A stretch of 64,000 bases of DNA. Source: Sphingobacteriales bacterium (GTDB lineage Bacteria > Bacteroidota > Bacteroidia > Chitinophagales > CAIOSU01). Both the position numbers and the translations under genes were made by a program. Of the stretch, positions 46,104-63,405 are shown piece after piece. The stretch spans positions 1 to 64,000 of the forward strand of contig JAIXUD010000017.1 in assembly GCA_027483645.1 (NCBI GenBank), read 5' to 3'. Within the stretch, counting starts at the first letter, position 1. Every line of letters starts with the position of its first letter. A model generated the notes under the pieces. That model ran no database searches, was not told the DNA's origin, and saw nothing but the letters and a program-made list of their open reading frames with translations.

Positions 46104-47057
46104 TTACTTCACCGTTACGCCGTAGGTACCGGTAAAAATCTCGCCAGGTTGCAACACAATCAAGCCAATACCATTATTAAAAGCATCAGGCGCGCACGTC
46201 ATCGGCTCAATAGCAATAGATTGACGATCCTCTGGTATGTATATCTGGAAGAAATTGTATTTGCTCTTACCTATTTCTTGCCAAACCGTAATCTGGAAGT
46301 GGCGGTCAGGGTCGTATAGTTGTATGTAAGCAGTGTCTTCGCGCTCCTTTACATTAATAGCAAAGGGGGTATCAAATGCTTCCTTACCAATGGTTTCGAG
46401 CTCAGTAAAGCGCTTGTATGGCTTCTTTTTACCGGTTGGTATCAATCCAGCATCTACTTCTATCTCGTCGCAATCAGGCAATACCAGTTGTAGGCGGTCA
46501 ACCAAAGTACCAGTTTTAAAGTACGGGTGCCAACCATCGCCAAAAGGCATAGGCTCATTACCGATGTTTTTAACCGTGGTTACGCACTCAAATCCATCTT
46601 CCGACAAGGCATAGATAATGTTCATGCGGAATTGGAACGGATAGCCATCGGTTTTGCCATTGTGAGAGTATTCAAATTCCACATTGCACTCCGTACTGCT
46701 TTCTGAATGGCTGATTAAATCAAAAGGCTTATTAAATATAAAGCCATGGATGGAGTTCTTTTTACCATCACCGTTCTTTGGCAACTGGTAATCCTTGCCG
46801 TCAAACTTGTATTTGCCATCTTTAATGCGGTTAGGGAAAGGAGCCAACTTGGCACCTTTAAACCACTGCTTTTTTGACATTTCGCGGCTATCATTGGTGC
46901 CGCGCAACAGCGGAATGTTCTTCTTATTGGCTTGCAGCACCAATTCGTTGGTATTGCAACCATAATCATGGATAATGGTAACATATTCACCCGATAGAAC
47001 ATTGTTCAATTCTAGCTGCGTCAAACTCCCAAACGAATCTTCCTGTATTTTGAACAT
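46104..47057 (-). CDS. Aldose 1-epimerase-family protein
   Basis: 317 aa. Galactose-mutarotase fold: LAPFPNRIKDGKYKFDGKDY, NSIHGFIF (first His), FGDGWHPYFKTG (second His) and the catalytic-Glu region SIAIEPMTCAPDAFNNG. All expected active-site positions are present, so sugar mutarotation is likely. It is monocistronic and is the last chromosomal gene before the phage-like cluster begins. Confidence 0.92.
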   Translation of the reverse strand: MFKIQEDSFGSLTQLELNNVLSGEYVTIIHDYGCNTNELVLQANKKNIPLLRGTNDSREMSKKQWFKGAKLAPFPNRIKDGKYKFDGKDYQLPKNGDGKKNSIHGFIFNKPFDLISHSESSTECNVEFEYSHNGKTDGYPFQFRMNIIYALSEDGFECVTTVKNIGNEPMPFGDGWHPYFKTGTLVDRLQLVLPDCDEIEVDAGLIPTGKKKPYKRFTELETIGKEAFDTPFAINVKEREDTAYIQLYDPDRHFQITVWQEIGKSKYNFFQIYIPEDRQSIAIEPMTCAPDAFNNGIGLIVLQPGEIFTGTYGVTVK

Positions 47058-47333: not shown

Positions 47334-47999
47334 ATGATGATTGAAGCATTCGACAGCAAAAAAATGATAGACCTTACCAAAGTAACCATCGCTCAATTTA
47401 TCGCCTATTGCAAGCTGGTAGATGGGCTGCAACCGGAGTTAGACAAGCGTTTCCCAGATAAGACCGGCATTACCGGCGTGGATTTGCTAACTCGCTATCC
47501 TGAATATGTAGAAGCTGTTGTAAAGTTTTGGACCGGATGGGATACCGTGAAAGATAAAGACATGGATATGGTATTGGGCATATTTACCGTAGTGGATAAA
47601 TTGACCGTGATACAAGCGCCAGTTGCCTTAAAAGCATTTGAGCAAGAAGGTGAATGGTACCATGCGCCCGCCGACCTACAGTTGCTTAACAAAGTGGCCC
47701 CGATGGGTAAAGCCAGCTTCGGCCAAGCACTTGAAGCGGTGCAAATTGAGCAATTGATGCAGGGCAAATATGAAATGATACCTTATGTGCTGGCCACATT
47801 GTTTTTGCGCAGCGATGAAACCGTTGACGATTTTGAAATAGGCCAGCGCGCCGCCATCATGGAGCGGTTGCCATTAACCACCGCCATGAACGCCTATTTT
47901 TTTTTAGCCTGTTCCGCGAGCACCTGGTTAAAACGTATCAGCCGCTATTTAGAGGCGAAGGAGATGCCAAAGCATCGCAAGCAGGAGTTGGTAAGCTAA
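47334..47999 (+). CDS. Tail-assembly-chaperone-like protein, zero-frame product
   Basis: 221 aa, first gene of the phage-type cluster. Residues 1-185 are mostly helical. At 47897-47905 is a run of nine T after GCC TA; the zero frame continues for about 31 poor-looking residues (LACSASTWLKRISRYLEAKE) and stops. The -1 frame instead continues for 94 codons of protein-like sequence to 48187 (see next entry). This G/GT-type layout is typical of tail assembly chaperones that use a programmed -1 slip. The position at the head of a tail cluster supports that role; sequence similarity is weak to my eye. Confidence 0.75.
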   Translation: MMIEAFDSKKMIDLTKVTIAQFIAYCKLVDGLQPELDKRFPDKTGITGVDLLTRYPEYVEAVVKFWTGWDTVKDKDMDMVLGIFTVVDKLTVIQAPVALKAFEQEGEWYHAPADLQLLNKVAPMGKASFGQALEAVQIEQLMQGKYEMIPYVLATLFLRSDETVDDFEIGQRAAIMERLPLTTAMNAYFFLACSASTWLKRISRYLEAKEMPKHRKQELVS

Positions 48000-48187
48000 A
48001 CCAATTTGGCTGGTACAACCTACTATATACCGCAGTCGCGGGCCAACTGGCGCAGTTGGAATATATTAAAACCATAAACGTACATACGGCATTTCAATTC
48101 CTCACGCGCCAGCGTGAGGAGCAGCGCTTTACCGAGCGCCTGCAGAAAGCCTATGCGGATGAGGCAAAAGCCAGAAGGAAAAGATGA
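47903..48187 (+). CDS. -1 frame extension of the tail-assembly-chaperone-like gene
   Basis: After a one-base slip on T9 the reading frame gives FSLFREHLVKTYQPLFRGEG, then KLNQFGWYNLLYTAVAGQLA, LEYIKTINVHTAFQFLTRQR and a basic end ARRKR before TGA at 48185. It has no start codon of its own near its beginning and its composition matches the gene upstream, so it is the C-terminal part of a 284-aa fusion product. FGWYNLLY resembles the conserved aromatic block of T-type extensions in other tail chaperones. A single-base sequencing error in the T run would give the same picture. Confidence 0.75.
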   Translation, partial: FSLFREHLVKTYQPLFRGEGDAKASQAGVGKLNQFGWYNLLYTAVAGQLAQLEYIKTINVHTAFQFLTRQREEQRFTERLQKAYADEAKARRKR

Positions 48188-48355
48188 AATGTGAAATAGG
48201 AAATGTGAAATAGCAAACAAAGAAATGGAAACGATGAAATGCGAAATGGAAAATCCCCAAAAACAAGTAAAACCGAAAAACGAGGTTTCACATTTCCCAT
48301 TTCATCTTTTTCATTTTAATGCTGTTTCCCATTTCCCATTTCATGTTTCTCATTT
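48188..48355. repeat. GAAATGTGAAAT / ATTTCACATTTC fold-back repeat
   Basis: Several copies of GAAATGTGAAAT- and GAAATGCGAAATGG-type words are followed by their inverse (TTTCACATTTCCCATTTCAT and variants). The element overlaps the nominal N-terminal codons of the next gene. Confidence 0.7.
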
Positions 48356-49058
48356 AGCTAATCCCCTGCCGCGTGTGTTGCTAGCCGCTCCTATTTCCCG
48401 CAATAAGGAGTACATTCTCCAAGATTGGCTGCAGCATATTACCGGGTTCACATACCCGGCCTACGACATCTTCTTGGTGGACAATAGCCCCGACCCGGCT
48501 TTCCACCAAGAAGTATGGCGCAGGGGATTCCAATGCGGTTATTACCCACCGCAAGGCAAGCGGGCACCCGATTTTATTGCCGATAGTCAAAACATGCTGC
48601 GGCAGTACTTTCTGGAGAACGATTATGACTACTTTTTTAGCCTGGAGTGTGACAACTTTCCGCCGCACAACATTATTGAGCTCATGCTCAGTTACCGGGC
48701 CGACAACATAAACATACCCTACTTCCTTAAGCAAGGGCCAGCTACTGCGCTAGGCGTGCAGCTATCGGTAATCAATTACCAAGGCTGGTGTGCCAACAAG
48801 GTAATGGCACCTTACGAGGGCATAGGGGCTTTCGATGGGCGGGTGAAGCGATACTTTGCCCCATCCATCGGTTGCTCGCTCTTTAGTAAGAAACTGATGC
48901 AGCAGCTCAAGTTCCGCACCTGCCGCAGCAACCCGATGGCCTTTAGCGACAGCTTTTGGCACTTGGATAGCAACCGCATTGGCATCAAACCATTGGTGCA
49001 CATGGGCGTGCTATGCGAGCACCGCAGGTTTACCTGGAAGTACAACAGATCACTTTAA
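48225..49058 (+). CDS. Glycosyltransferase-like protein 1 (GT2-type)
   Basis: 277 aa if started at ATG 48225, but the first about 45 residues come from the word repeat (HFPFHLFHFNAVSHFPFH) and are probably not native; the real fold begins at LPRVLLAAPISRNKEYIL, possibly from GTG at 48375. It shows a nucleotide-sugar-transferase start, LVDNSPDPAF, and an acidic SLECDNFPPHN motif like the DxD metal site of GT-A enzymes. It is one of four glycosyltransferase-like genes in the cluster. Acceptor unknown; capsid, tail or host-surface glycosylation are options. Confidence 0.7.
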   Translation: METMKCEMENPQKQVKPKNEVSHFPFHLFHFNAVSHFPFHVSHLANPLPRVLLAAPISRNKEYILQDWLQHITGFTYPAYDIFLVDNSPDPAFHQEVWRRGFQCGYYPPQGKRAPDFIADSQNMLRQYFLENDYDYFFSLECDNFPPHNIIELMLSYRADNINIPYFLKQGPATALGVQLSVINYQGWCANKVMAPYEGIGAFDGRVKRYFAPSIGCSLFSKKLMQQLKFRTCRSNPMAFSDSFWHLDSNRIGIKPLVHMGVLCEHRRFTWKYNRSL

Positions 49059-49074
49059 GCTAATTGGGAGTTCA

Positions 49075-49127
49075 GTAAATTCTAGCAATCACATACCGCT
49101 CCAAACCAATTAACCAATAACCAAATT
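49075..49127. repeat. TTAACCAATAACCAA word repeat
   Basis: Words of AACCAATTAACCAATAACCAA type precede the small membrane protein gene. Related words occur at 52397-52453 and 54886-54980. Confidence 0.5.
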
Positions 49128-49304
49128 ATGATAACCTTATCTCGACTCAAGCCCTTATTACTGGTGCTATCGGTACCGCTATTGCTCATCATTGCCTTTG
49201 CCGTGGCAGCCAAAGGCGGCTGGCCCCAACTCTGGAATTTCATCTTCGGATATGCCGTGGGTGCTTTTTATGCTTGGATTAATTGGCAGAAGAAAGTGGG
49301 TTGA
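49128..49304 (+). CDS. Small two-helix membrane protein
   Basis: 58 aa. Two hydrophobic segments (LLLVLSVPLLLIIAFAVAA and WNFIFGYAVGAFYAWIN) are joined by KGGWPQL and flanked by Lys residues. It is separate from both neighbours and preceded by a word repeat. Small phage membrane proteins of this size can be holins, but the sequence does not prove it; a role in the envelope is equally possible. It ends just before the 19-base inverted repeat. Confidence 0.65.
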   Translation: MITLSRLKPLLLVLSVPLLLIIAFAVAAKGGWPQLWNFIFGYAVGAFYAWINWQKKVG

Positions 49305-49310
49305 TCCGGG

Positions 49311-49453
49311 TGTCTGAATCAGAATTTTCATAATTAGAAAATTTTAGAATTCAGACAAAAGTTCTATCAGCATGTAATGCCTTTTCTGATAATACATCAA
49401 TCTCCATCATACAATTCTGTAATTCTTTAATTCAGAAAATTCTGATTCAGACA
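49311..49453. repeat. Perfect 19-base inverted repeat in spacer
   Basis: Arms TGTCTGAATCAGAATTTTC (49311-49329) and its exact complement (49435-49453) enclose shorter copies of the same words (AGAATTCAGACA, TTAATTCAGAAAA). It fills the spacer before the coiled-coil gene at 49458. Confidence 0.85.
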
Positions 49454-49457
49454 ACAA

Positions 49458-49931
49458 ATGCAAAAACTCGAGCTCCCACAAGCGCTAGACGACATCCGCG
49501 CGAAGATATTGCTGCTGGAACAGCGCCTGTTGTTAATAGCCGAAGGTATAGAACTATACAGCAAATTGGCTACTGAAGAAACCGACCCTGTAAAAAACTA
49601 CCAATACCGCGAGCAGGCCAGCAAACGACAGGAAGAACTAATAGTGTACAACGAGCAGTGGCGCTCGCAACAGGTGTATCTTACCGAATTTGAGAACGAC
49701 TTAAAACAACAGCAAGCCCTGCGGCAAAAGCAGCTGGCACACTTAAAGGAGCACCGCCAACAGGTACTGGATACGGCCAAGGAAAGATTGAAAAAAGGCG
49801 ACCTGCCCGAACAGGAAAAAACGATTATCAATGCTCTCAGGGAGCAGTTTATCAAAGATCAGTTCACCACTGATGAAGAGCGCATTGTGCGCTTCAGGGA
49901 ATTAGTGAATGCCTTGCAGCGCGTGCAGTAG
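49458..49931 (+). CDS. Coiled-coil protein of the phage-like cluster
   Basis: 157 aa, highly charged and almost entirely helical (LLLEQRLLLIAEGIELYSKL, EFENDLKQQQALRQKQLAHL, DTAKERLKKGDLPEQEKTII). No signal peptide or known motif. Its size and place fit a small structural or scaffolding-like protein. Function unknown. Confidence 0.75.
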   Translation: MQKLELPQALDDIRAKILLLEQRLLLIAEGIELYSKLATEETDPVKNYQYREQASKRQEELIVYNEQWRSQQVYLTEFENDLKQQQALRQKQLAHLKEHRQQVLDTAKERLKKGDLPEQEKTIINALREQFIKDQFTTDEERIVRFRELVNALQRVQ

Positions 49932-49977
49932 TAGTTTTTGTCTTGTGTCTTGTGTCTAAAAATCTTGTGTCTAATTT
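49932..49977. repeat. TCTTGTGTCTTGTGTCT word repeat
   Basis: Three TTGTGTCT units lie just before the next ATG. They are the inverse of the AGACACAAG words at 60.2, 61.4 and 62.5 kb. Confidence 0.7.
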
Positions 49978-50580
49978 ATGTTCACCCTCATTACCAATTG
50001 GTACCACGAGCCTAATAGCGACCGGCGGGCCGAGCTACTCTACTGCCTGAACCGTAACCTGGAGCATCCACTGATAACGCGAATATGGCTTATGGCTGAA
50101 GGCAATGCCGAGGTACCGCATCACCCAAAAATAAGGGTGAAACACATCGCCAAGCGGGCCAAGTTTAAGGATATGATACAATTGGCGAATGAACAAGCAG
50201 GCATAGTGGCCATTGCCAATACCGACATCTACTTTGACGAAACACTGGAAGCGGCAAAGTTTATAAAACCCCACGAGTGCTATGCCCTTACCCGCTGGGA
50301 TGTTACCAGCCGCAAAAGGCTGCGGTTTTATGGAAAATGCTGCAGCCAAGATGCCTGGTTGCTACGCCCGCCCATCGAAATGAAAGGTGGTGACTATAGC
50401 CCCGGCAAACCCGGCTGCGATAACAAGCTGGCTTGGGAACTAGCGGAAGCAGGTTTAAGGGTGAGTAACCCTTCCAAGACTATCAAGGCTTGCCACTTAC
50501 ACCTCACTGGCCTACGGCGCTACACCCGCAAAGATGCGGTGCCTGGGCCATACTTAACCCTACAACCTATCAACCTATGA
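49978..50580 (+). CDS. Glycosyltransferase-like protein 2
   Basis: 200 aa. GIVAIANTDIYFDETLEAAK has the strand-DxD-strand look of GT-A metal sites, and earlier CLNRNLEHPLITRIWLMAEG and later RRPPIEMKGGDY-type segments fit a short nucleotide-sugar-dependent transferase. The stop overlaps the start of the next glycosyltransferase-like gene in an ATGA. Specificity is unknown. Confidence 0.65.
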   Translation: MFTLITNWYHEPNSDRRAELLYCLNRNLEHPLITRIWLMAEGNAEVPHHPKIRVKHIAKRAKFKDMIQLANEQAGIVAIANTDIYFDETLEAAKFIKPHECYALTRWDVTSRKRLRFYGKCCSQDAWLLRPPIEMKGGDYSPGKPGCDNKLAWELAEAGLRVSNPSKTIKACHLHLTGLRRYTRKDAVPGPYLTLQPINL

Positions 50581-51479
50581 ATGTACTATATGTAAGCCTT
50601 GGCGACCACCAACATTCGCTTAGGAAAGCTTTAAGCAATCTTGGTAACCTAACAGAAGTAAATTGGCGCAAGGATGCGCAGGTGAACCACACCTTGCAGC
50701 GATTGGCGAACCAACAGCGGTTTGATTTGTGCTTCTTCCAACTGCAAACACCCGGCATCATTCAACCGGCTACCTTACATGCCTTGAGTGGCTACAAGGT
50801 AAACTGGACGGGCGATGTGCGTTTCCCTACCCCGCAATGGTATGCGGATATGGCCCCATACTTTGACATTACGCTGTTTACCAACGAGTATGATGTACAT
50901 GTGCTACGCAAGAAGGGTTTGAACGCCGATTATATGGCCATGGGTTTTGAGGATGAGATATTTGTGCCCAGCGAACCCGCCGAGCACATAGCCGATGTGG
51001 TATTTATGGCCAACAACTATGGCAACGCTTTCCCCTTAAGCGGTTTCCGTACCGAGGTGGTACAAACCCTTAGCAAACAGAAGGATTTCACCTTTGCAGT
51101 ATGCGGCAGCGGCTGGCCCTTCGCGACCGAGAACCTGAATAAAAAGCCCGAACGCGAGGCGGCCATCTACCGCGGGGCGAAAATGGCCATAAACCTCAGT
51201 CACTTCGATTACCCAAGGTATAGCAGTGGCCGCATGTTCAACATACTGGGTAGCGGTACCCTATGTTTATCGCACCATTACCAAGGCATAGAAGATGACT
51301 TTAAAGTGGGCACCCACTTGGATACCTTCCGCACGATACCCGAACTGGTGGAAATGATAAAATACTACGTGCGCAACGACAAGGCGGCCCTAAGGATTGC
51401 CACTAACGGCTACGAACTAGCCCACCAAGAAATGACTTGGGATAAGCGGATTGCTTCCCTAGTATCAAGTATCAAGTAG
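50577..51479 (+). CDS. Glycosyltransferase-like protein 3 (GT-B/CgeB type)
   Basis: 300 aa from ATG at 50577 (ATGA overlap with the previous stop). N-terminal half: MNVLYVSLGDHQHSL, then TPGIIQPATLHALSGYKVNW. C-terminal half: AIYRGAKMAINLSHFDYPRY, GRMFNILGSGTLCLSHHYQG and ELVEMIKYYVRNDKAALRIA, the donor-binding signatures of GT-B proteins with the Glyco_trans_1_2 domain found in CgeB-like spore-surface proteins. Two Rossmann halves are complete. Donor and acceptor are unknown. Confidence 0.82.
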   Translation: MNVLYVSLGDHQHSLRKALSNLGNLTEVNWRKDAQVNHTLQRLANQQRFDLCFFQLQTPGIIQPATLHALSGYKVNWTGDVRFPTPQWYADMAPYFDITLFTNEYDVHVLRKKGLNADYMAMGFEDEIFVPSEPAEHIADVVFMANNYGNAFPLSGFRTEVVQTLSKQKDFTFAVCGSGWPFATENLNKKPEREAAIYRGAKMAINLSHFDYPRYSSGRMFNILGSGTLCLSHHYQGIEDDFKVGTHLDTFRTIPELVEMIKYYVRNDKAALRIATNGYELAHQEMTWDKRIASLVSSIK

Positions 51480-51620
51480 TGAGTATCAAGCACTGCTTCA
51501 AGCTGCACGTGCTCTATTTACCATTATCATTTACATCCCTTGTTTGCACATTGGTACATCGCCATATCTGTAAATCAGCACATCAATTTTCAAATTTCCT
51601 CATTTCCTCATTTTCAAATT
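51476..51620. repeat. Mosaic word repeat (AGTATCAAG, CATTTTCAAATT)
   Basis: AAGTATCAAGTA-type words, ACTGCTTCAA, GGTACATCG, AATCAGCACATC and TTTTCAAATTTCC words follow each other before the ATG at 51626. The same words reappear in the spacers at 60.2-60.4, 61.4-61.6 and 62.5-62.7 kb. Confidence 0.7.
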
Positions 51621-51625
51621 AAAAA

Positions 51626-52396
51626 ATGGTCCTTGCCGCTATATACAACACATTTGATGGGGAAGAACTGCTGGAAGGCAGCATTGCCCAAATCATCAAG
51701 CAGGTTGATGAGGTTTTAATCGTATATCAGCTAGAATCAAACATTGGGGAGCATTACCCCGAGCTCTTGACCACTTTGGCTGTCATTAAAGAACGCTGGC
51801 CACAAGTGCGGTTACAAAAGTACGCCCCAAACCTAGCCATGTCGCCCGCTAACAACGAACGCACAAAAAGGCAGATTGGGCTAGATTGGGCAATAAAGCT
51901 TGGGTGTACGCATTTCCTGTTTATCGATAATGATGAGTACTATGATACCGTTGCTTTCGAAGCGGAAAAGCAAAAAGTAATAGATGCCAAGGCCGACACT
52001 TCTGCTTGTAGGCTATACACATACTACCAGAAACCCATTTACCGCCTTCAGCCCATCGAAAACTATTGGGTGCCGTTTATTGGCAGGCTAACACTAGGCA
52101 TAAGGGCAGGGGGTAAGTTCCCCGTACTGGTAGACCCCACACGAGGCGTGCAACCTACAGGCCGCTGCTTCCTATTTGCCGAAGGTGATTTAGTAATGCA
52201 TCACTATAGCTACGTGAGACGCAACATTGCCCGCAAACTGCGCAACAGCAGCGCCGCCCGAAACTTTGGGAACATCCACCAAAAAGTGGCGCTGTTCAAC
52301 CAATGGCAGCTAGGGCAACCGCTGGTCAACTTCCCGAAACACAGCATCCAAGAAGTGCATGATCTGTTCAACATTGGCAGTCAATTGGTAGGCTAA
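51626..52396 (+). CDS. Glycosyltransferase-like protein 4 (GT2 type)
   Basis: 256 aa. The GT-A pattern is clear: MVLAAIYNTFDGEELLEGSI at the start, then THFLFIDNDEYYDTVAFEAE with D-N-D metal residues, and later VMHHYSYVRRNIARKLRNSS. Similar to small glycosyltransferases often carried by Bacteroidota phage-type clusters. It is the fourth in this cassette. Acceptor unknown. Confidence 0.8.
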   Translation: MVLAAIYNTFDGEELLEGSIAQIIKQVDEVLIVYQLESNIGEHYPELLTTLAVIKERWPQVRLQKYAPNLAMSPANNERTKRQIGLDWAIKLGCTHFLFIDNDEYYDTVAFEAEKQKVIDAKADTSACRLYTYYQKPIYRLQPIENYWVPFIGRLTLGIRAGGKFPVLVDPTRGVQPTGRCFLFAEGDLVMHHYSYVRRNIARKLRNSSAARNFGNIHQKVALFNQWQLGQPLVNFPKHSIQEVHDLFNIGSQLVG

Positions 52397-52453
52397 TCAA
52401 ACTAATTACTGATTAACCAATGAACGAATAACCAATAACATATCAACCAAACC
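52397..52453. repeat. AACCAATGAACGAATAACCAA word repeat
   Basis: Short TTAACCAAT/AACCAATAAC words before ATG 52454, matching those at 49075-49127 and 54886-54980. Confidence 0.5.
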
Positions 52454-52927
52454 ATGACTATAACCCAACTAATTACTGAACTGGGAACTATTGCTCAGGC
52501 GCAAACCGGCCTCAACGGATTGGTATATGGCGAGCCAGTGGAGATAAATAGCCAGCGAAATAGGGATTACCCATTACTGTTTGTTGACCGCAACATACGC
52601 ATCGAGGGTATGAACCTGAAGACGAGGCAGCGGGTGTACAACCTGAAACTTTCCTTCTTTGACCGCTACCCGCGGCCGGAAGAAATTACCACTGCCAGCG
52701 AGACCAAGCAGCGCGACCTAGAAATATTGGCCGAGCAGTTTTTACAGGAATTTAAAGAACGGTACAAAGCCAATGGCCACCCCTGGAAAATTGAGAACGA
52801 AGAAAAACTGACCGGCAACTGGCAGTACCGCAAGCACCAGGACCGCCTAATTGAACTAACCTACAACCTACAGATACGTTGCCAAGGCGAATGCTTGGCC
52901 GGAACCTTTAACTACCCAACGCTATGA
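52454..52927 (+). CDS. Tail-completion-like protein
   Basis: 157 aa, short N-terminal helix, then beta-rich core (LFVDRNIRIEGMNLKTRQRV, YNLKLSFFDRYPRPEEI) and a long helix with the ELTYNLQIRCQGE end. Size, position and shape resemble tail terminator/neck proteins of siphophages. It overlaps the HK97-gp10-like gene by 4 bases. No direct motif proof. Confidence 0.6.
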   Translation: MTITQLITELGTIAQAQTGLNGLVYGEPVEINSQRNRDYPLLFVDRNIRIEGMNLKTRQRVYNLKLSFFDRYPRPEEITTASETKQRDLEILAEQFLQEFKERYKANGHPWKIENEEKLTGNWQYRKHQDRLIELTYNLQIRCQGECLAGTFNYPTL

Positions 52928-53226
52928 AAAACCTAGAGCAAGCATTGCAACAAGCGGCTGCCCGCCTTGATGCGGCCATAAAACTGGAACTGCAAAACCG
53001 CAAACACATAAAAACCGGTAAGCTAGCCAACTCCGTAAAAACCAATATAGTACGCGGCCCAAAAGGCGCCTCGCTACAAACCCAGATGGAAGATTATGGC
53101 AGGCAACTGAATGACCGAAGTGGCTTTATGGATGCTGCCATCAATAGTGAGGAAGATGCCATCACTCGCATGATTGAAGATGCGGTGCAGCATGATTTGA
53201 ATGATTACTTGGATCAAGAAATTTAA
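52924..53226 (+). CDS. HK97-gp10-like head-tail protein
   Basis: 100 aa: helical AAARLDAAIKLELQNRKHI, then KTGKLANSVKTNIVRG as in gp10-type proteins, and a helical end. Proteins of this type join the head to the tail. Overlaps the preceding gene by 4 bases and precedes the large tail protein by 6 bases. Pattern similarity only. Confidence 0.6.
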   Translation: MKNLEQALQQAAARLDAAIKLELQNRKHIKTGKLANSVKTNIVRGPKGASLQTQMEDYGRQLNDRSGFMDAAINSEEDAITRMIEDAVQHDLNDYLDQEI

Positions 53227-53232
53227 TCGCCC

Positions 53233-54885
53233 ATGGCTACAATAAGCATAACGCTGGAGCCGCCAGCTATTGCAGCGGTAAATAACCCGGTGCTATATAA
53301 GATTTTTGGTGCACCATATAATGAGATGCATTTGGCAAAAATCAGCATTTACTATATACCTGCGCCTAACGCACTGGCAGTACCTATTACTAGTTGGGAG
53401 CAACAGCCAGAACCAGGGCCGGTACCGGTATTCAACTTTAATATTTCGCAGGCAATACAAGAGCATCTTAGCTACTTTATACACCCGCCCAATGCTAGCG
53501 GAGTGCAATCACCCATGGAGACCATCCTAAAGTTTCAGATACAGTTTCAGGTGCTTACTTTTATTAACGGGGTAAAAACGCCCAATAGCAATACCATTAC
53601 CAAATCGTTTTGGGGGGTTAATGCCTCTTTGCAGCACAATGAGCCCAACCTAAACCCATACTTACTTGATGGCAGCCAAAAGCAATTTTTAACCCATGGA
53701 CCTGCTGAAAAAGACATCCGAACAGGGGATAGCGAGGTACTCTCGGTACTTACTAACAATACCCAAGGCTCGTTTATGCTAAAGGTAAAAAGCTATGATG
53801 CTATTGGCAACGAAACTAAACAAGAGCTACCCATGAGTTCGTTTCTCACAAAAAAACGCCTTGACTTGCCAGTTGGACCCGGTAACATCGCACAGCAGTG
53901 GCCTGGCTTCTTAACCAACAAAACCCGCTACGAAGTAGTAGTGGAACCCGCTACCACCAACCTATTTAAAGCAGGCGATAATGGGACCTTTGACAGTAAC
54001 ATCACCAATATTTTTGCAAACCCTGGCGTAACAGTAACCCATAATACCACAAGAAAAAAGTCGGGTGCCGCTTCGTTGCAGATGCAGCTTTATGATGCCA
54101 CCACCACAGAACCGATTGCCTGGCTTTCTAGCTACCACACCCTACAGCCCAACACCTACTACGAGCTAAAAGCACATGTATATGTAGAATACCTCGATGT
54201 GCTTTCGTGGGGTTTGATATTAATGCAAGATGGCTTTAGCGATGCTGTGGTGCTCAACCAAGACTTTGCCAAGGTTTACATTCGGGCTTTCCACCAAGCC
54301 CAGTACCAAAACTACTTTGATCAATGGATACCGCTAACACTTGCTTTTAGAACAGGCAATGATGTAACCGGTAGGTTTGGAATGAAGTTCACAGGTACCA
54401 TGCAAACCTTACAAGCATTTGTTGACGATGTGACCCTTATGGGCCAGGTAGCTGCAGCCCGCAAAATAACCTACCACATAAAACCTGCCTGCGGCCACGA
54501 AACCCGCGTGCACTTCCTTAACCGCCTAGGCGCTATGGATAGCTACACCTTTACCGGCACCGAGCGAAGGAATATAAGAACCGAAGGCAACACTTACCAG
54601 AGGCTTAAACCCTTTAACTACCCTTCCAACGCCCGCGGCAGGCAGGTACTGCAAAAGAACGCTACCGTGCGCCTCTCCTGTTCCAGCGATGTGCTGAGGC
54701 CCGACGAAATGCTCTGGCTAGAGGAATTGCTTACTAGCCCGGCAGTATACGTACAGCAAGACAACCAGAATGTGCCAGTAATACTGCGCGATGGCGAATT
54801 CGAGATTATCGACCCTACTAAAAACATCCACCGCTTGCGAGTAGAGCTGGAATATGCCAACGATATGCTATTGCAGCGAGGGTGA
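53233..54885 (+). CDS. Tail/baseplate protein with a CBM-like insertion
   Basis: 550 aa. N-terminal about 240 residues are beta-rich (NPVLYKIFGAPYNEMHLAKI, YEVVVEPATT). Residues about 242-404 (TNLFKAGDNGTFDSNITNIF, KKSGAASLQMQLY, PNTYYELKAHVYVE, DDVTLMG) have the look of a CBM4/9-like sugar-binding domain. The remainder (FTGTERRNIRTEGNTYQRL, LWLEELLTSPAVYVQQ) resembles distal-tail proteins. A receptor- or polysaccharide-binding role is likely from position and the module. Confidence 0.75.
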   Translation: MATISITLEPPAIAAVNNPVLYKIFGAPYNEMHLAKISIYYIPAPNALAVPITSWEQQPEPGPVPVFNFNISQAIQEHLSYFIHPPNASGVQSPMETILKFQIQFQVLTFINGVKTPNSNTITKSFWGVNASLQHNEPNLNPYLLDGSQKQFLTHGPAEKDIRTGDSEVLSVLTNNTQGSFMLKVKSYDAIGNETKQELPMSSFLTKKRLDLPVGPGNIAQQWPGFLTNKTRYEVVVEPATTNLFKAGDNGTFDSNITNIFANPGVTVTHNTTRKKSGAASLQMQLYDATTTEPIAWLSSYHTLQPNTYYELKAHVYVEYLDVLSWGLILMQDGFSDAVVLNQDFAKVYIRAFHQAQYQNYFDQWIPLTLAFRTGNDVTGRFGMKFTGTMQTLQAFVDDVTLMGQVAAARKITYHIKPACGHETRVHFLNRLGAMDSYTFTGTERRNIRTEGNTYQRLKPFNYPSNARGRQVLQKNATVRLSCSSDVLRPDEMLWLEELLTSPAVYVQQDNQNVPVILRDGEFEIIDPTKNIHRLRVELEYANDMLLQRG

Positions 54886-54980
54886 GTTTGGTTATCGGTT
54901 GATCTGTTAATTGGTTAATCGGTAATGAAAACAATACCCTTTAAACTAATCAACAGATCAACTAATTAACCAATCAACTA
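54886..54980. repeat. Fold-back word repeat (GATCTGTTAATTGGTTAAT)
   Basis: GATCTGTTAATTGGTTAATC is followed about 55 bases on by AATCAACAGATC and ATTAACCAATCAAC, its approximate complement. Non-coding spacer before the 66-aa gene. Confidence 0.7.
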
Positions 54981-55181
54981 ATGAAGGCTCAACTAAACGA
55001 ATACCTCTATATAACCCGTGCAAATGAGCAAATGCTGCTGCACCTAGAGGCGGAGATTGATGATTTCCTGGATTTGCTAAATGCACTTCGTAGCCGTGGT
55101 TTTCGGTTTAAAGTGATTGGCAAGGCAGAATACTATTACCTAAAAGACACCTTAAAACTCGCCGGCTACACGGCAAAATAA
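54981..55181 (+). CDS. Small unknown protein of the phage-like cluster
   Basis: 66 aa, helical (EQMLLHLEAEIDDFLDLLNA) with a basic, aromatic end (RGFRFKVIGKAEYYYLKD). Precedes the large tail gene by 7 bases, so it is cotranscribed with it. No recognised family. Confidence 0.65.
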   Translation: MKAQLNEYLYITRANEQMLLHLEAEIDDFLDLLNALRSRGFRFKVIGKAEYYYLKDTLKLAGYTAK

Positions 55182-55188
55182 GAAGGCG

Positions 55189-57828
55189 ATGCAAAATATT
55201 ACCATAGACATATTTAACTCAACGCAGCCAACAATCTTGGGTAGCCTTGAAATTAGCGACCACGATGACTTTCCTTTGGCACTGAGCATGTCACTGGCCA
55301 ATATCAGGGATATTACCAAACGCTCCGGCATTAGCTCCAAAACATTTAAGGTGCCAGCGAGCAAAAACAACAACAAAACCCTGCAATACCTATACCACAT
55401 TGCGGTTTCGGCACAAACCATTACCGATGGGGTAAAGGCAGTGATTAAAGTTGACAACCAACCGCTCTTTACTGGTCAGCTTAAAATAAGCAACCTACAG
55501 CAAACCTTGTCTCCCGAATATTACGAGATGGAGTTTACGGGCGACAACCTTGACTGGACCAATACGCTTAAAGAGCTGAAGCTGAATGAGCTGGAGTTTA
55601 GCAATCCGCATATCCCCGCCAGAGTTTTGACGAACGGCAGTTGGAGCAATGAAAACCTGCCCAGTGGCAACGGTAAGGTATACCTTACCCGCCAAACTGT
55701 TGAAGCAAGTTGGCATGGTACGGTAGATAGCGGCTGGGACTATGTGTACAGCCTGAAAAGCTATGGCCGCTGGCTGAACGCTTATAGCCATGTAACTATT
55801 GAAGAAATGCGGCCCGATATTTACTTCCGTAGCATCCTTACAAAAGCATTTGCCGCGGCTGGGTATAGCTTGAGCAGTACTTTTCTGGATAGCGCATTTT
55901 TTAAAAGGCTGGTGCTACCCTATACAGGTAAAAGTTTCGAGCTTACTGCCGATGAGGTGGCGCTTTATAACCGTGAGTTGATTTACCGACAAGGCCCTTA
56001 TCAGCCCACTGTTTCACAATCGAGCGGCGGCTATGAAAAAAAGTTTGTTGATTTATCCAGGTTGCTGCAAGTTACTGGTAACTCTAGCTTGATGCAGGTA
56101 TATCAAGATACTGTTGAAATAAAGTACACCCAACCTCCTTTTCCCCTACAAGTAAAAATTGATTGCCTCGGTTTTAGTACCAACTCAAAAGGTAGGTACA
56201 ACCTCTCCTTTGGCCATGATATTTATGCCTCTAATGATGGCAACCTAGATTTCTTTATTGCCGAATACGGCAATGGTATAGTTGACCATAGTACCCTCGT
56301 ATCGCTTGGCTCATTTGAACTCACCACGGGTAGGCAATTTGTGGAGTTTTCGGCTCAAGATGTTTTGTTGAAAGCCAATACCAGTTATGTACTAGTTGCT
56401 ATCAACTATACGGTAACCATACTCATGGTATATTTCTTTCCCACTTCAGGGCCGAAATCGTACTTCAAGATTGCTAAGCAAGCCGCCATATATGAAGGCA
56501 ATCAATACACCTTGGGCGCAACCTTGCCCGATATACCCGTATTAGACTTACTAACCGGTTTGGTGAACATGTTTAACCTATACATACAAACCGATACCGA
56601 GAACAAAGTTGTAACCATTGAACCACGAAACACCTTTTATAAACCCATTACCAAAGCCGTGGATTGGTCTAGCAAGCTAGATATTAGCCAAGCCATACAA
56701 ACCACTTACTTGGATGATTATAACCGCGAGATACAGTTTGTATTTAAGGAAGATAACAACGACACGATTGTAAAAAAACTTAAAGAGGCTAATATGCTTG
56801 CCCCAGGTTCCTTTAGCTATAACCTGCCCAAGCGATACAAAGAAGGCAAGCAGCAACTAGGCAATAAAACATTCGCCTACACCGAAATGCGCGCTGATAA
56901 TTACCAAATTCCTAATGCACAATCGGCAGCTACTTATCTGCCCCATTTTTGGAGCGGAGATAGCGAGCCCCCCGAGCCTACTTACTCGTTTGCCCCGCGT
57001 GTGCTGTACTATGCCGGTATGATTACTGGGTCGTGGGCTGGCAAACCAACCCGATGGGGATGGTACAACGATGGCAATTTGCTTGATACCTACCCCGTTG
57101 CTACGCGCAATGCACCGGGCAATGAGCTGGCATATAACACCACCAGCGGTTTTATAGCCAAATATTACCAAAATGACTTAGCCCAAATTACGGAAGGCAA
57201 AGTGGTAACCGCTCACTTTAAACTTAGCCTGGCAGACGTGCGCCAGCTTGACCTAAGCGTGCCGGTGTATATAAGCCACCCACAGTTAGCGGGTTATTAC
57301 TGGATACAGACAGTTCACGATTTCATCCCGACGCGATCGGGTACTACAAAAGTTGAGTTAATACCTATACACATTCCAGTATCAATAGATTTTGCCTATA
57401 ATCAGCAGGTGCAACTTCGACAAGCTACCCCAGGTGTTGGCCTTGGTATTGGCATCAACGCCGCCACTACCGCTTTGGGCGCAATAGCAAAACAACCATC
57501 GGTAGTGTTACAAAACGGTAGCCATAATGTTGCGTCGCTCAATGGCGGCTCCATAGCTTTCGGCAACGGCACCATGGCGCTGGGGGCACAGCAGCATGTA
57601 CTGGGCAACTACAATGTAGCCAGCGAGAACGATATTATCCAAATAGGCGCTGGCACATCCAACGCTGACCGCTACCGCGCACTCACGTTTACCCAAGAGG
57701 GCAACTTCTTGGTTCAAGGCGGCTACCTATACACCACCGATGGCCGCGAGATCATGTTCGCCTCTCAGCGCAATGCCCAAGGGCAGCCTAGGCGGTATGA
57801 TAAGCTGCATTTGAGTGGCGATAAATAA
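55189..57828 (+). CDS. Large tail/baseplate hub-fibre protein
   Basis: 879 aa. N-terminal SGISSKTFKVPASKNNNKTL and YYEMEFTGDNLDWTNTLKEL are typical of Bacteroidota phage tail proteins. A long beta-rich body follows. Near residues 780-830 are YadA-head-like repeats (GSIAFGNGTMALGAQQHVLG NYN, TSNADRYRALTFTQEGN) and a C-terminal segment YTTDGREIMFASQR. That head-like motif suggests a trimeric fibre tip. It lies between the small gene and the tape measure and is probably a receptor-contacting baseplate protein. Confidence 0.78.
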   Translation: MQNITIDIFNSTQPTILGSLEISDHDDFPLALSMSLANIRDITKRSGISSKTFKVPASKNNNKTLQYLYHIAVSAQTITDGVKAVIKVDNQPLFTGQLKISNLQQTLSPEYYEMEFTGDNLDWTNTLKELKLNELEFSNPHIPARVLTNGSWSNENLPSGNGKVYLTRQTVEASWHGTVDSGWDYVYSLKSYGRWLNAYSHVTIEEMRPDIYFRSILTKAFAAAGYSLSSTFLDSAFFKRLVLPYTGKSFELTADEVALYNRELIYRQGPYQPTVSQSSGGYEKKFVDLSRLLQVTGNSSLMQVYQDTVEIKYTQPPFPLQVKIDCLGFSTNSKGRYNLSFGHDIYASNDGNLDFFIAEYGNGIVDHSTLVSLGSFELTTGRQFVEFSAQDVLLKANTSYVLVAINYTVTILMVYFFPTSGPKSYFKIAKQAAIYEGNQYTLGATLPDIPVLDLLTGLVNMFNLYIQTDTENKVVTIEPRNTFYKPITKAVDWSSKLDISQAIQTTYLDDYNREIQFVFKEDNNDTIVKKLKEANMLAPGSFSYNLPKRYKEGKQQLGNKTFAYTEMRADNYQIPNAQSAATYLPHFWSGDSEPPEPTYSFAPRVLYYAGMITGSWAGKPTRWGWYNDGNLLDTYPVATRNAPGNELAYNTTSGFIAKYYQNDLAQITEGKVVTAHFKLSLADVRQLDLSVPVYISHPQLAGYYWIQTVHDFIPTRSGTTKVELIPIHIPVSIDFAYNQQVQLRQATPGVGLGIGINAATTALGAIAKQPSVVLQNGSHNVASLNGGSIAFGNGTMALGAQQHVLGNYNVASENDIIQIGAGTSNADRYRALTFTQEGNFLVQGGYLYTTDGREIMFASQRNAQGQPRRYDKLHLSGDK

Positions 57829-57849
57829 TAGTAATAAAACGTACAAATT

Positions 57850-59229
57850 ATGGCAAAGGAAATAGCCTTCCAGATTCAAGTGGAAGATGCTGCACTGCAG
57901 CAATTGTTGAAAGACCTAGGTAACTTGGTTACCTTATATGATAAGGTGGCCAAAAGCCAAGATGGCAGCACCACGGCTAGCCAGCAATATGCCCAAATAC
58001 AAGCACAAATATTGCAAACGGAAAAACAGCTAATACAGGCAGGCAGCCAAAGCATCGCTGTTAATGAGAAACAGCAGGCGACCATCAAAACTATATCCGC
58101 GCTCACCACCAGGCAAGAGCAAGAAGACAAGAAAGCTACAGACACCATTGCTAAGGTAAATGCGGAGAAAACAAAGCTTACCCAAACCCTCAATGGGTTG
58201 AACCTTAAAACCGTAGCCGGGCAAGAAGCTTACGCCACCTATCGGGAGCAACTGCAAGGGGTTATGATGGAATTGGGGCAATGCGAAGTAGCCCTGAAAA
58301 GCACCACAGCAACAGCCGATAACCTCTCAGTAAATTTCGGGGCGGCATTTTTGAAAATTCAAGATAGCGTAAGGGATACAGGCAACACCTTCAAAAGCTT
58401 AAAGCAGAACCTCGATTTGGCAAGTATAACCTCCCAGATGAGCGAAGCCCTGAATGTAATAGACCAGATAAGCGAATTGCGCCTACAAAACGACCTAGCC
58501 CGAATAGATAGCAAGCGCGATGCCGAAATTGCCTCCGTAAACGCCAGCGTGCTATCGCAAGAAGAAAGGGACAAGCGCATTGCCGACATCAATGCTAAGT
58601 TTGACAAACAGGCTGAGGCTAGACAGAAGGCCGCCGCTAAACGGGATAAAGCCATTGCTACAACCAAAACCATTATAGCAGGGGCGCAAGCCGTGGTGCA
58701 AGGTATCGCACAGTTTGGCCCACCACCTAGCCCTTTGGGAATTGCGGCAATTGCCTCGGCTGCGGTAACTACAGGATTACAGTTGGCAACAATCGCCAAG
58801 CAAAAGTTTGCAAATGGCGGCTACATCCCTTTCGAAACTGGGGGCATGATACAGGGTGGGCCACATAGCCAAGGCGGGGTGCCGTTTCTATCGGGCGGTA
58901 ACTTGATGGAGGCCGAAGGCGGTGAGCTGATAGTGAACCGCAACATATGGCGCAGGCCCGATTTTGTAAAGAACATATCGGAAATGAATGCCCTTACCGG
59001 CGGCAAGCGGTTTTTTGCAGCAGGCGGTATGGTACCTACGGTTTCTCCACCAAGCTATTTAAGCAATTCAACCATTCAATCCGAAGGATTGGATAGCGAC
59101 ATGCTCATAAAAGGGCTTCGTGGGGTAATTGCCAAAGAAGTAGGCAGCCTCAAAATAGTGAACAATGTGGTGGATACTACCAGCCAGCAGCAACGGTTGC
59201 TGAACATACAAACGGGGGCTAGCTTCTAA
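57850..59229 (+). CDS. Tape-measure-like protein
   Basis: 459 aa. Residues 1-270 are long charged helices (QAQILQTEKQLIQAGSQSIA, QNDLARIDSKRDAEIASVNA). Residues about 275-320 are a hydrophobic Ala/Gly-rich stretch (LGIAAIASAAVTTGLQLATI). Then FANGGYIPFETGGMIQGG, the Gly-rich repeat common at tape-measure ends. It would set tail length (about 70 nm if 459 residues are helical), quite short. Overlaps the next gene by one base (TAATG). Confidence 0.82.
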   Translation: MAKEIAFQIQVEDAALQQLLKDLGNLVTLYDKVAKSQDGSTTASQQYAQIQAQILQTEKQLIQAGSQSIAVNEKQQATIKTISALTTRQEQEDKKATDTIAKVNAEKTKLTQTLNGLNLKTVAGQEAYATYREQLQGVMMELGQCEVALKSTTATADNLSVNFGAAFLKIQDSVRDTGNTFKSLKQNLDLASITSQMSEALNVIDQISELRLQNDLARIDSKRDAEIASVNASVLSQEERDKRIADINAKFDKQAEARQKAAAKRDKAIATTKTIIAGAQAVVQGIAQFGPPPSPLGIAAIASAAVTTGLQLATIAKQKFANGGYIPFETGGMIQGGPHSQGGVPFLSGGNLMEAEGGELIVNRNIWRRPDFVKNISEMNALTGGKRFFAAGGMVPTVSPPSYLSNSTIQSEGLDSDMLIKGLRGVIAKEVGSLKIVNNVVDTTSQQQRLLNIQTGASF

Positions 59230-59420
59230 TGGACACGATACTTACTGAAGCTTACTTAAAGAAGCTCCGCTGGCAGCACTGCAATGCCTGCCCGCATCTC
59301 AAAAACAAACTGTTCCGCTTCTGGACTTTTAAACCGTTGGCGCGCTGCGGCGTATGTGGTTGTTTTTTGAAAGCAAAAATATCCTTAAAACCCATGAAAT
59401 GCCCGATAGGCAAATGGTAA
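59229..59420 (+). CDS. Small zinc-ribbon-like protein
   Basis: 63 aa. Cysteines are arranged CNAC ... CGVCGC ... CPIG, a likely zinc ribbon, with basic residues between. Starts on the stop of the tape measure (TAATG) and ends on the start of the next gene (TAATG), so the three are translationally coupled. Role unknown. Confidence 0.75.
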   Translation: MDTILTEAYLKKLRWQHCNACPHLKNKLFRFWTFKPLARCGVCGCFLKAKISLKPMKCPIGKW

Positions 59421-59674
59421 TGAGCAAACAATACAAAGGCATAGAAAACATAACCGCCACTGATAAGGAACTGGTACGGCGACTATTTACCCACTGGCAA
59501 CAAAACCGTCACCAACCCAATAGGGAGGAGGTGAAAACCCTCTTCGGTAAGTACCATGAGTACGTGTACAAAAGCCCGAGCGACCTATCGTGCCCGAGTT
59601 GTGTACAGTTTATTTATGACTATTGGGATAGGATAACGGCCAATTGGAAAGCAACTATCTCTCAACACACTTAA
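59420..59674 (+). CDS. Small unknown protein with CPSC motif
   Basis: 84 aa from the ATG at 59420 (an ATG at 59414 is also in frame). Helical: TATDKELVRRLFTHWQQNRH, EYVYKSPSDLSCPSCVQFIYD. The CPSC pair could bind metal. Its 3' end overlaps the minus-strand gene at 59655 by 20 bases. No family recognised. Confidence 0.7.
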   Translation: MSKQYKGIENITATDKELVRRLFTHWQQNRHQPNREEVKTLFGKYHEYVYKSPSDLSCPSCVQFIYDYWDRITANWKATISQHT

Positions 59675-60182
59675 GGGTACGAATCCAGAAGTCGGCACGC
59701 AAGGGCGCCACTTGGTCGAAACCAATGCCGTACACACTTTCACTCACCTTTAAGATGGGTGACTTGGTAAGAATGGCAACCTGCTCGGGGGTGAGGAATA
59801 TGGAAGCCCCAATCATGTAATTGGCATAGCGCACCCGCTGGGCACCGCTACCTTCTTTAAACTCTTCTAGCTTAAGGGTAAGGGTGGTGCTATCCTTAAA
59901 CATGAAGGTAAGCATCAAGGGTTTTTTAGGATCGAATTTTTGCTTCTCCTCCAAAGCATAAGGGTGGATATTCCAATCAACGATAGCCTGTATGTAGCCG
60001 TTCCGGTTCTGTACATATATGCCCAGCGTACGGTTGGGGATGGTGTAGATAATCTCCTTCTTGGTAGACTTTACAAACTCATCTTTAATACTCTTGTGGA
60101 TGAGCAAGTTACAGTCTTCGTTTTGGGCATTTAGCCCCAAAGAGGCCAATGTTAAGAGGGCAATGATGGGTAGGTATTTCAT
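59655..60182 (-). CDS. Secreted protein, reverse-strand cargo gene
   Basis: 175 aa, the only minus-strand gene in the cluster. Signal peptide MKYLPIIALLTLASLGLNAQ. The mature part is beta-rich with a single early Cys (EDCNLLIHKSI, NRTLGIYVQNRNGYIQAIVD, KPLMLTFMFKDSTTLTLKLE). Its own -7 element lies 8 bases before the start. Host-like secretion, reverse strand and own promoter are the marks of a moron or of a host gene caught in the cluster. Function unknown. Confidence 0.82.
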   Translation of the reverse strand: MKYLPIIALLTLASLGLNAQNEDCNLLIHKSIKDEFVKSTKKEIIYTIPNRTLGIYVQNRNGYIQAIVDWNIHPYALEEKQKFDPKKPLMLTFMFKDSTTLTLKLEEFKEGSGAQRVRYANYMIGASIFLTPEQVAILTKSPILKVSESVYGIGFDQVAPLRADFWIRTLKCVER

Positions 60183-60189
60183 GTTGGTG

Positions 60190-60197
60190 CAAAGTTA
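60190..60197 (-). promoter_or_regulatory. -7 element TAACTTTG for the cargo gene
   Basis: An exact TAnnTTTG match on the minus strand, seven bases upstream of the ATG at 60182. It gives a very short leader, as for the lipoprotein at 12271-12822. Confidence 0.6.
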
Positions 60198-60201
60198 GTG
60201 T

Positions 60202-60361
60202 ATTAGACACAAGATTTTAGAAATGTCATCCTGAGCGTAGTCGAAGGACGCAAGACACAAGACTGCTTCAATTTATGCAGTGTATGTAATAACCATGCCA
60301 ATATTTAGGGGCCACTCCCATTTTCAAATTTTCAAATTCCCTCATTTTCAAATTTTCATAC
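60202..60361. repeat. Mosaic word repeat with GTCATCCTGAGCGTAGTCGA block
   Basis: It contains AGACACAAG words, the GTCATCCTGAGCGTAGTCGA-type block that is widespread in Bacteroidota intergenic DNA, the unit AAGACACAAGACTGCTTCAA shared with 61.4 and 62.5 kb, and TTTTCAAATTTTCAAATT words before ATG 60363. Confidence 0.75.
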
Positions 60362-60362
60362 G

Positions 60363-61442
60363 ATGGATCATCCGCAATCAACTAAGAGTTGGTACAACAT
60401 TAAAAGTAGCTTGTCCGATACCGGGCTTATTGAAGTGTACATTGATAACGAAATAGGTGAGTTCGGTATTACGGCGCGCCAGTTTCTCAACGAGATAAAG
60501 CCGCATGCCGGCAAGCCCGTGCGCCTGCACATCAACAGCCCAGGCGGTAGCTTGATAGATGCATTTGCCATTTACGATTTCGTAAAACTGCAAGGCTATC
60601 ACCTCAGCGCCTACATCAGCGGCATTGCCGCCAGTGCCGCAACCGTGGTGGCCGCCGCCGCTAAGGAGAGCTTCATTGGCGAGCACAGCTACTTTTTCAT
60701 CCACAACCCATACTACGCTGGCGGCAGCCACGCCAAAGGCGTGGGGATGCAAGGCGACTTGGACAAGATGAAGAACGACCTACTGGACATTTACCAGCGT
60801 AAAACAGGCCTCGACAAAAACCGCATCAGCGCCATGATGGATGCCGAAACCCTACTGAGTGCTGAAGAGGCACTTGAGATGGGCTTTGTGGATGGTATAG
60901 TGCGCGAAATGCAAGTAGCTGCCCTGATGCTAGATGAGAGCTTGAAGCGAATACCCGATGCTGCCGTGGCCAACCGTCTAGCCTTTCGCCTTGGGCTGGG
61001 CCAAGTGCAGCCACAAAACTCCACCAAACTGATTGATAAAGCCGTGGAGGCCATTGGTAGGCTGGAGCAAGGTATTAAGCACCGCCTATATCCGCAAAAC
61101 AGTATTCAACCCAATATTTCTAAACAATCCAAACCCAAACCAAAAATGGAGAACATCCAAGCATTGGAGCAGAAGCTGGAGGAGCTAATCCAACAGCTTA
61201 ACGAACTGCTCGCACAGTTGGCAGGCGACGAGAAAGCCCCCGCCAAAGAAACCCCCAAGCCCGCCCCTGGCAAAGAGGAGCCACAAAAAACGGTGGAGAA
61301 CCTGGAGCGCGAACTACAGCGCCTAAAAGCCCGCCGCATTGATACCGGCAACCCTGGTGCCGATGCCGACCCTAACCGCAACGAACGTGGCAAGAAAAAC
61401 GGCTGGAACTATGTAAGCACCTATTTGCAGAACCGCTTTTAA
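60363..61442 (+). CDS. ClpP-like prohead (head maturation) protease
   Basis: 359 aa. ClpP/S14 fold in residues 20-190: HINSPGGSLIDAFAIYDFV, nucleophile S91 in GIAASAATVVAAAA, base H114 in YFFIHNPYYAGG, and the Asp-rich region DLDKMKNDLLDIY. The C-terminal 110 residues are Lys/Glu-rich and coiled-coil (LEQKLEELIQQLNELLAQLA), a likely scaffold domain fused to the protease, as in other HK97-type heads. It precedes the capsid gene. Confidence 0.93.
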   Translation: MDHPQSTKSWYNIKSSLSDTGLIEVYIDNEIGEFGITARQFLNEIKPHAGKPVRLHINSPGGSLIDAFAIYDFVKLQGYHLSAYISGIAASAATVVAAAAKESFIGEHSYFFIHNPYYAGGSHAKGVGMQGDLDKMKNDLLDIYQRKTGLDKNRISAMMDAETLLSAEEALEMGFVDGIVREMQVAALMLDESLKRIPDAAVANRLAFRLGLGQVQPQNSTKLIDKAVEAIGRLEQGIKHRLYPQNSIQPNISKQSKPKPKMENIQALEQKLEELIQQLNELLAQLAGDEKAPAKETPKPAPGKEEPQKTVENLERELQRLKARRIDTGNPGADADPNRNERGKKNGWNYVSTYLQNRF

Positions 61443-61556: not shown

Positions 61557-62510
61557 ATGGCCAACGCTATTAGTATTGTGGAGACTTGGAGCACGGAGCA
61601 CGTGGCCGAGATTTTCCTGAAACCGGTTTTTACAGCCGAAAACATTATTGACACCTATGGGGTAGACCCAACCGTAAACCGCTCTAAAACCATTGTTTTG
61701 GCCGAAGAGCTAAAACGCATCATCCAGAAAAAGGAAACGTGTGGTTTTAACCCTATCGGTGCTTTTGCTTTGGGCGAAAAAACCATCCGCACCGAGCCTT
61801 GCGCCGTGAACATGGAACAGTGTGCCACCGCTTTTTACGAAACGGTTTTCAAACAAAACCTGAAACGCGGCAGCGACATTTACGACCTGAGTGGTACCGT
61901 GTTGGAAAAAGCCATGGTAGATCGTGTAACCAGCGCCATAAGCAACGACATTTTTGAGCTTTGCTGGTTTGGTAACACCGCACATGCCACTACCTTCTTC
62001 AAAACGTTTGATGGTTGGTTTAAGCTGCTAGAAAATGGCAGCTGCCCGAAAATCACCATTAGCACCACGGGCAATTTGGCATCTGATGAGGCCATTGATA
62101 TACTGCGCGATATGTACAAAGCATCAAATGCGCTGCGTGCCGTAAAGCCCAAGGACAAGGTTTTCTTGGTAACCGACAGCCTATTTAGCAACCTAATGGA
62201 GACCTTCGAAAACATGGATACCGATACCGGCCTTGCCCGCTTAGCCGATGGCGGACCGCTTACCTTCCGTGGCATACCGGTGGAGAGCCAACTGGCTTGG
62301 GATACCTCTATTGCCGGACAAACCTTGCCCGATCCGCACAGGGCGGTTTACACCAAAAAAGAGAACCTCATCATCGGTACCGATGTAAAAAACCCAGGCA
62401 GCGATGCCAAGTTGTTCTTGGATGAGTTGACCGAGAAGTTCTACTTCAAAGCCAACTTCGATCTAGGCGTGCAGTACTTGTTTGATGAGTACGTGGTGTA
62501 TGCGCGATAG
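61557..62510 (+). CDS. Major capsid-like protein
   Basis: 317 aa. Located directly after the prohead protease. The body is alpha/beta (AENIIDTYGVDPTVNRSKTI, LEKAMVDRVTSAISNDIFEL, DEAIDILRDMYKASNALRAV, VKPKDKVFLVTDSLFSNLME) with a C-terminal strand-rich part, as expected of HK97-fold capsids. Size and place support the call; sequence similarity to a named family is not evident to me. Confidence 0.8.
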   Translation: MANAISIVETWSTEHVAEIFLKPVFTAENIIDTYGVDPTVNRSKTIVLAEELKRIIQKKETCGFNPIGAFALGEKTIRTEPCAVNMEQCATAFYETVFKQNLKRGSDIYDLSGTVLEKAMVDRVTSAISNDIFELCWFGNTAHATTFFKTFDGWFKLLENGSCPKITISTTGNLASDEAIDILRDMYKASNALRAVKPKDKVFLVTDSLFSNLMETFENMDTDTGLARLADGGPLTFRGIPVESQLAWDTSIAGQTLPDPHRAVYTKKENLIIGTDVKNPGSDAKLFLDELTEKFYFKANFDLGVQYLFDEYVVYAR

Positions 62511-62513
62511 TAT

Positions 62514-63233: not shown

Positions 63234-63234
63234 A

Positions 63235-63395: not shown

Positions 63396-63405
63396 CTTTA
63401 CCTCA

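Follow-up and report, generated by a model that had tools for sequence, protein, structure and literature searches.

A probable programmed -1 frameshift at a T run, conserved among divergent Bacteroidota prophages and phages, in a putative tail gene

The first gene of a virus-like gene cluster of a freshwater Bacteroidota bacterium, here called the slip gene, contains a run of nine T beyond which the -1 reading frame stays open well past the end of the zero frame. Is this break a built-in switch by which one start gives two products, or has a single T been lost from a gene that is truly in one frame? The window, that is, the whole 64-kb stretch of DNA that was analysed, contains the following features at this locus.

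47364..47999, plus strand: zero-frame coding sequence, short product of 211 aa from the conserved start; an ATG upstream at 47334 is not conserved
47897..47905, plus strand: T9 slip run, zero-frame codons TAT TTT TTT TTA, nine T in all five genus genomes
47897..47903, plus strand: core -1 heptamer U UUU UUU in register (NNT TTT TTT), common to seven lineages
47900..47906, plus strand: second heptamer U UUU UUA, overlapping the first
47906..47999, plus strand: doubly coded stretch with reduced substitution, encoding the 30-aa zero-frame tail and the first part of the -1 extension
47906..48187, plus strand: -1 extension, 93 aa past the slip and then TGA, long product of 274 aa

The preliminary description of this DNA proposed a programmed or transcriptional slip at the run and placed it correctly: T9 lies at 47897-47905 within a zero frame of 221 codons (47334-47999), and the -1 frame has no stop from there until the TGA at 48185-48187. 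From the first T onward the -1 frame comprises 96 codons, with neither ATG nor GTG and a single TTG (codon 54). T9 is the sole run of T or A of at least 8 in the window, and in the shuffled segment 93 codons stay open about 1% of the time; with a unique run and a chance of this size, the evidence from the single sequence is suggestive only. As a whole explanation, to which we assign a probability of about 0.6, slippage at the run would give two products from one start, and these would form a tail chaperone pair of the G/GT type.

All five available genomes of the genus carry the slip gene as a single copy; two other genera of the family lack it, as does every other genome of an order-wide sample of 399. 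In each of the five, the run is exactly T9, both frames are open, they overlap by 100 nt, and the -1 extension has 96 codons; protein identity among these genomes is 72-78%. The conserved start is ATG 47364, from which the short and long products have 211 and 274 aa. The long frameshift product of the preliminary description is supported, but not its length of 284 aa, which depends on the start at 47334 that relatives do not share. Pairwise difference falls from 21.8% upstream to 12.6% in the doubly coded stretch, and zero-frame wobble sites are variable in 70% of codons upstream and in 37% of codons within it. The zero-frame tail of 30 aa, earlier called poor, is conserved within the genus because the DNA there appears to be read in two frames; between lineages it is indeed unconserved.

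The same arrangement is found far beyond the genus. Seven lineages were recognised, namely the genus, the prophages G168, G265, G474 and G411, the prophage family f61 and the P12024 phages. In the six besides the genus, the corresponding gene heads the tail block and has a run of seven to nine T and a comparable -1 extension. G168 and G265 are distant prophages reached through their portal proteins (27% and 25% identity), and the tail block of each begins with a 240-aa ORF in which a run of exactly nine T lies close to the 3' end, followed by about 100 codons of -1 extension. An IMG/VR relative of G168, 70% identical, has T9 and the same architecture. Prophages anchored on DUF6712 added G474, with T9, and the five genomes of f61, with a T7 run, and a search with the f61 extension recovered G411, with T9. 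Scanning IMG/VR by homology to the f61 extension, without use of the T run, gave 71 close loci, all of which read (C/T)AT TTT TTT at the slip, with T7 in 54, T8 in 8 and T9 in 9. Their extensions measure 84-90 aa and their zero-frame tails 22-55 aa. Both slip codons encode Phe as TTT in every row; TTC, by contrast, accounts for 10-56% of rows at the other invariant Phe columns. Because these 71 loci are interrelated, they are counted as one lineage. Many of the contigs that carry f61-type slip genes (L061-L130) are about 20-28 kb long, and such elements, whether small or defective prophages or GTA-like, may form a family. The search of viral contigs with the genus proteins returned nothing real; its candidate L020 was rejected as a chance match in a T4-like phage.

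Isolated phages were reached through a fold search only. A tblastn search of INPHARED with the proteins of the genus, G168, G265, f61 and G474 gave no matches. The AlphaFold model of the f61 N part (pLDDT 88, pTM 0.80) matched uncharacterised phage proteins in BFVD, including I6R9M9 of Nonlabens phage P12024S. In this phage (JQ823122), gene 38, directly 3' of the terminase gene, has T9 at 23578-23586, and its -1 frame reads FFLSFRERLRDLYPELY..., close to FFFSLFREHLVKTYQPLF of the window. The record annotates genes 38 and 39 as two separate hypothetical proteins, with the shift unmentioned. Judged by coordinates, P12024L has the same arrangement. Both Nonlabens phages thus share the T9 in the gene after TerL, the -1 extension and an N part with the same predicted fold, and differ in that the annotation has two hypothetical proteins. 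Flavobacterium phage 6H (L157 10352-10927) gave a weak fold match, and its frames look broken near T6 and A7 runs, by a shift or by sequencing indels.

The two frames also behave as one protein when lineages are compared. In profile comparisons the extensions align between several lineages and the zero-frame tails do not, and the alignment of the long product of the window with that of G168 (E 2e-8) spans the slip. Because some pairs of lineages align weakly on their own, homology over all seven rests on chains of pairs together with position and architecture. The homologue in G443 has no T run and encodes the whole protein in a single 244-aa frame. Its alignment with the f61 long product is end to end (E 4e-17), and that with the window crosses the slip (E 2.6e-6). 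The preliminary description had held that unbroken homologues without a T run would speak against a shift. Such a homologue does exist, but it supports the finding, since it matches the frameshift product of a relative from end to end. G443 manages without the shift, so that two products may not be needed everywhere. The extension domain without the usual N part was seen in unbroken ORFs of about 170-210 aa (L132-L135, L143), those of L132-L135 lying directly 3' of a TerL-like gene; the genes suggest a split or unshifted form of the slip system.

These comparisons bear on the first question. A missing T in a gene that is truly in one frame would appear identical to a slip site in the window, as the preliminary description pointed out, and G454 does have an unbroken copy with a T7 run where its sister G411 has T9. 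However, compared with G411, G454 has splits in its portal and tape-measure genes too, so that this genome looks error-prone; its unbroken T7 frame was discounted and the genome set aside. The broken arrangement recurs in five genus genomes, 71 viral contigs and two sequenced phage isolates. Independent genomes exclude an assembly error, and the chance that any error of this kind explains the locus is close to nil. Homopolymer runs can also act as contingency loci, and a run whose length changes in the DNA could toggle the long product on and off between cells. Against such phase variation, the length of the f61 run varies only with the following codon and the relation of the frames is constant, a T7 run is short for slipped-strand mispairing, and, with G454 set aside, neither the 71 f61 loci nor the other lineages include any case of the long product fused on. 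Because no locus is in the fused state, phase variation is very improbable. Kept in seven groups of Bacteroidota phages and prophages that diverge from one another, the arrangement is, on the evidence of the sequences, that of a built-in switch and not of a sequencing error. This recurrence strongly supports the proposal of a programmed -1 shift at the T run with two products, one short and one long, as does the retention of the T run and both frames in all five aligned genus genomes and in further lineages. Programmed recoding is almost certain as a reading of the sequences; that slippage occurs, and how often, is inferred.

How the frame would be changed can be read from the register of the run. 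Both U UUU UUU and U UUU UUA follow the X XXY YYZ pattern of -1 ribosomal frameshift sites and are in register for tandem -1 slippage. Two tRNA-Phe on UUU UUU would re-pair one base upstream, on U UUU UUU. A majority of ribosomes would stay in the zero frame and make the 211-aa protein, and a minority would move back by one base on the U run, yielding the 274-aa protein, where a conserved domain of 93 residues takes the place of the final 30. Alternatively, RNA polymerase may add or drop a U on the run, so that part of the mRNA pool encodes the long product. This would fit the absence of any detectable or significant RNA structure downstream as a stimulator, both in the genus and across the 71 f61 loci; such stimulators of -1 frameshifting are common but not universal. 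T9, found in six of the seven lineages, is long enough for polymerase slippage in bacteria (reviewed in PMC5009743). However, any T9 contains U UUU UUU, and therefore the loci with T7 runs carry the information on mechanism. Only T7 is present in 54 of the 71 f61 loci, always in the register of U UUU UUU, and such a run is short for polymerase, although common descent makes these loci count for less than independent cases. Because NNT TTT TTT is common to all lineages, ribosomal slippage by two tRNA-Phe is favoured and is probably the cause of the shift, and transcriptional slippage is a possible but rather unlikely one. The T7, T8 and T9 runs form a natural series for separating ribosome from polymerase slippage as the driver of recoding in bacteria in which Shine-Dalgarno pairing is rarely used.

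What the two products do is suggested by analogy and by the position of the gene, upstream of the tail block. Tail genes of the window that bear on this position are as follows.

52454..53226, plus strand: two small tail/neck-like genes, 157 aa and 100 aa; the 100-aa product has a weak match to phrog_5 (tail completion/Neck1), E 0.087
57850..59229, plus strand: tape-measure-like gene, phrog_3336, E 0.0026

The slip gene adjoins TerL in f61, P12024S and G411, and lies two genes after TerL in G168. Beyond it, these four have tail terminator-like and neck-like genes, then two large genes, then the tape measure; the capsid and portal genes come after the tape measure in f61, G168 and G265. Related prophages have counterparts of the two small genes closely 3' of the slip gene. 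In the window's cluster TerL comes after the portal gene, outside the window at L007:12364, and the tape-measure-like gene is not adjacent to the slip gene, lying about 10 kb downstream with several genes between. In lambda-type phages, the chaperone gene instead adjoins the tape measure, between it and the gene of the major tail protein. A conserved slippery sequence at the joint of the two frames agrees with the G/GT type. Searches with the slip gene against Pfam, PHROG and PDB found no match to a known chaperone and no informative family or solved fold. The AlphaFold model of the genus protein, made with five rows, is poor (pLDDT 51), and the f61 N-part model gave nothing significant against PDB; the mixed alignment A6, in which N and extension rows were misaligned, was left out of folding. 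Because the gene is not beside the tape measure and has no family or structure match, it is described here as working like a tail assembly chaperone and is not filed as a member of that class.

Slippage on A/T runs, transcriptional or ribosomal, is also a feature of dnaX and IS elements, which are likewise cases of homopolymer-driven recoding of the -1 type; their proteins are unrelated to those of the slip gene. The closest parallel is the conserved -1 frameshift in the tail assembly chaperones of dsDNA tailed phages, as in gpG/gpGT of lambda (Levin 1993; Xu 2004; PMC5009743). Like gpG/gpGT, the slip gene encodes a small protein with a minor form extended in the -1 frame, ahead of the tail block. 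In contrast to gpG/gpGT, with which it has no sequence match, it slips on a site of U only, 7-9 long, for which no stimulator was detected, and is several genes from the tape measure and beside TerL in several lineages. Prophage-borne two-frame tail chaperone genes are also known from the HK97-like cluster of frameshifted genes found via GeneTack, for which frameshifting was measured at 7% (PMC3711429). That cluster resembles an HK97 protein, whereas for the slip family neither Pfam models nor functionally annotated PHROGs gave a match. The family was not found described in the literature searched, and the recoding is a conserved one of known kind in an unnamed protein family.

The TerL neighbour in several lineages, the distance from the tape measure and the extension domain in unbroken ORFs right after TerL (L132-L135) would also fit a gene that is recoded without being a tail chaperone at all: its product would then belong to the virion or to packaging, and a minor part of it would be extended, as with T7 gene 10A/10B. 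Against this, the slip gene heads the tail block in several lineages, and tail chaperones typically have a -1 shift of this kind, close to the 3' end of a small gene that precedes the tape measure (PMC5009743). A role in tail assembly seems the reasonable expectation, and the virion or packaging role is doubtful. As a tail-assembly chaperone pair of the G/GT type, the short and long forms would serve the phage-like particle encoded downstream.

The setting of the gene raises the question of what kind of particle this would be. The cluster holds complete head, tail and packaging genes, from 47334-64000 of the window on to about 73.6 kb of the contig (L007:1-13611). Three further features help to describe it.

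46104..47057, minus strand: host aldose-1-epimerase-like gene, neighbour in all five genomes, marking a fixed chromosomal site
60363..61442, plus strand: head maturation protease, ClpP type
61557..62510, plus strand: major capsid-like protein, phrog_1623, E 4.7e-14

From the slip gene to TerL, about 26 kb, the cluster is colinear in two other genomes of the genus (G003, G005), and in another two (G002, G004) it is so to the contig ends. Nearly all genes for which dS was estimable have a dN/dS ratio of about 0.03-0.25, and synonymous sites are close to saturation. No integrase was found on the contig of the cluster, and its holin belongs to GTA_holin_3TM (PF11351, E 2e-11). A vertically inherited, integrase-free head-tail-packaging cluster under purifying selection has the features expected of a gene transfer agent (GTA). 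It is a possible domesticated, GTA-like candidate, and the slip-gene cluster points to such a particle in Bacteroidota.

Automatic annotation splits or truncates the slip protein, as in P12024S. Recognition of the shift would give a likely name to a tail gene in many phages and prophages of Bacteroidota, in which most tail-module genes are "hypothetical". A wider reading is tentative: an unnamed, Bacteroidota-wide family of two-product tail assembly factors might use a stimulator-free slip on a U run, and the genus might keep this switch in a vertically inherited GTA, the first in Bacteroidota.

Other parts of the cluster gave minor observations. Between the slip and tail genes (48225-52396), up to four glycosyltransferase-like genes, one of them above the Pfam cut-off (PF13524), and a coiled-coil-like gene are conserved alongside; the glycosyltransferase-like proteins perhaps modify the particle. 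The large tail genes at 55189-57828 and 53233-54885 have 36-47% identity within the genus, whereas the portal and capsid genes have 84-91%, as expected for receptor-binding parts. Just 3' of TerL, at L007:13852-17262, lies a gene for a 1136-aa collagen-like protein of Gly-X-Y repeats.
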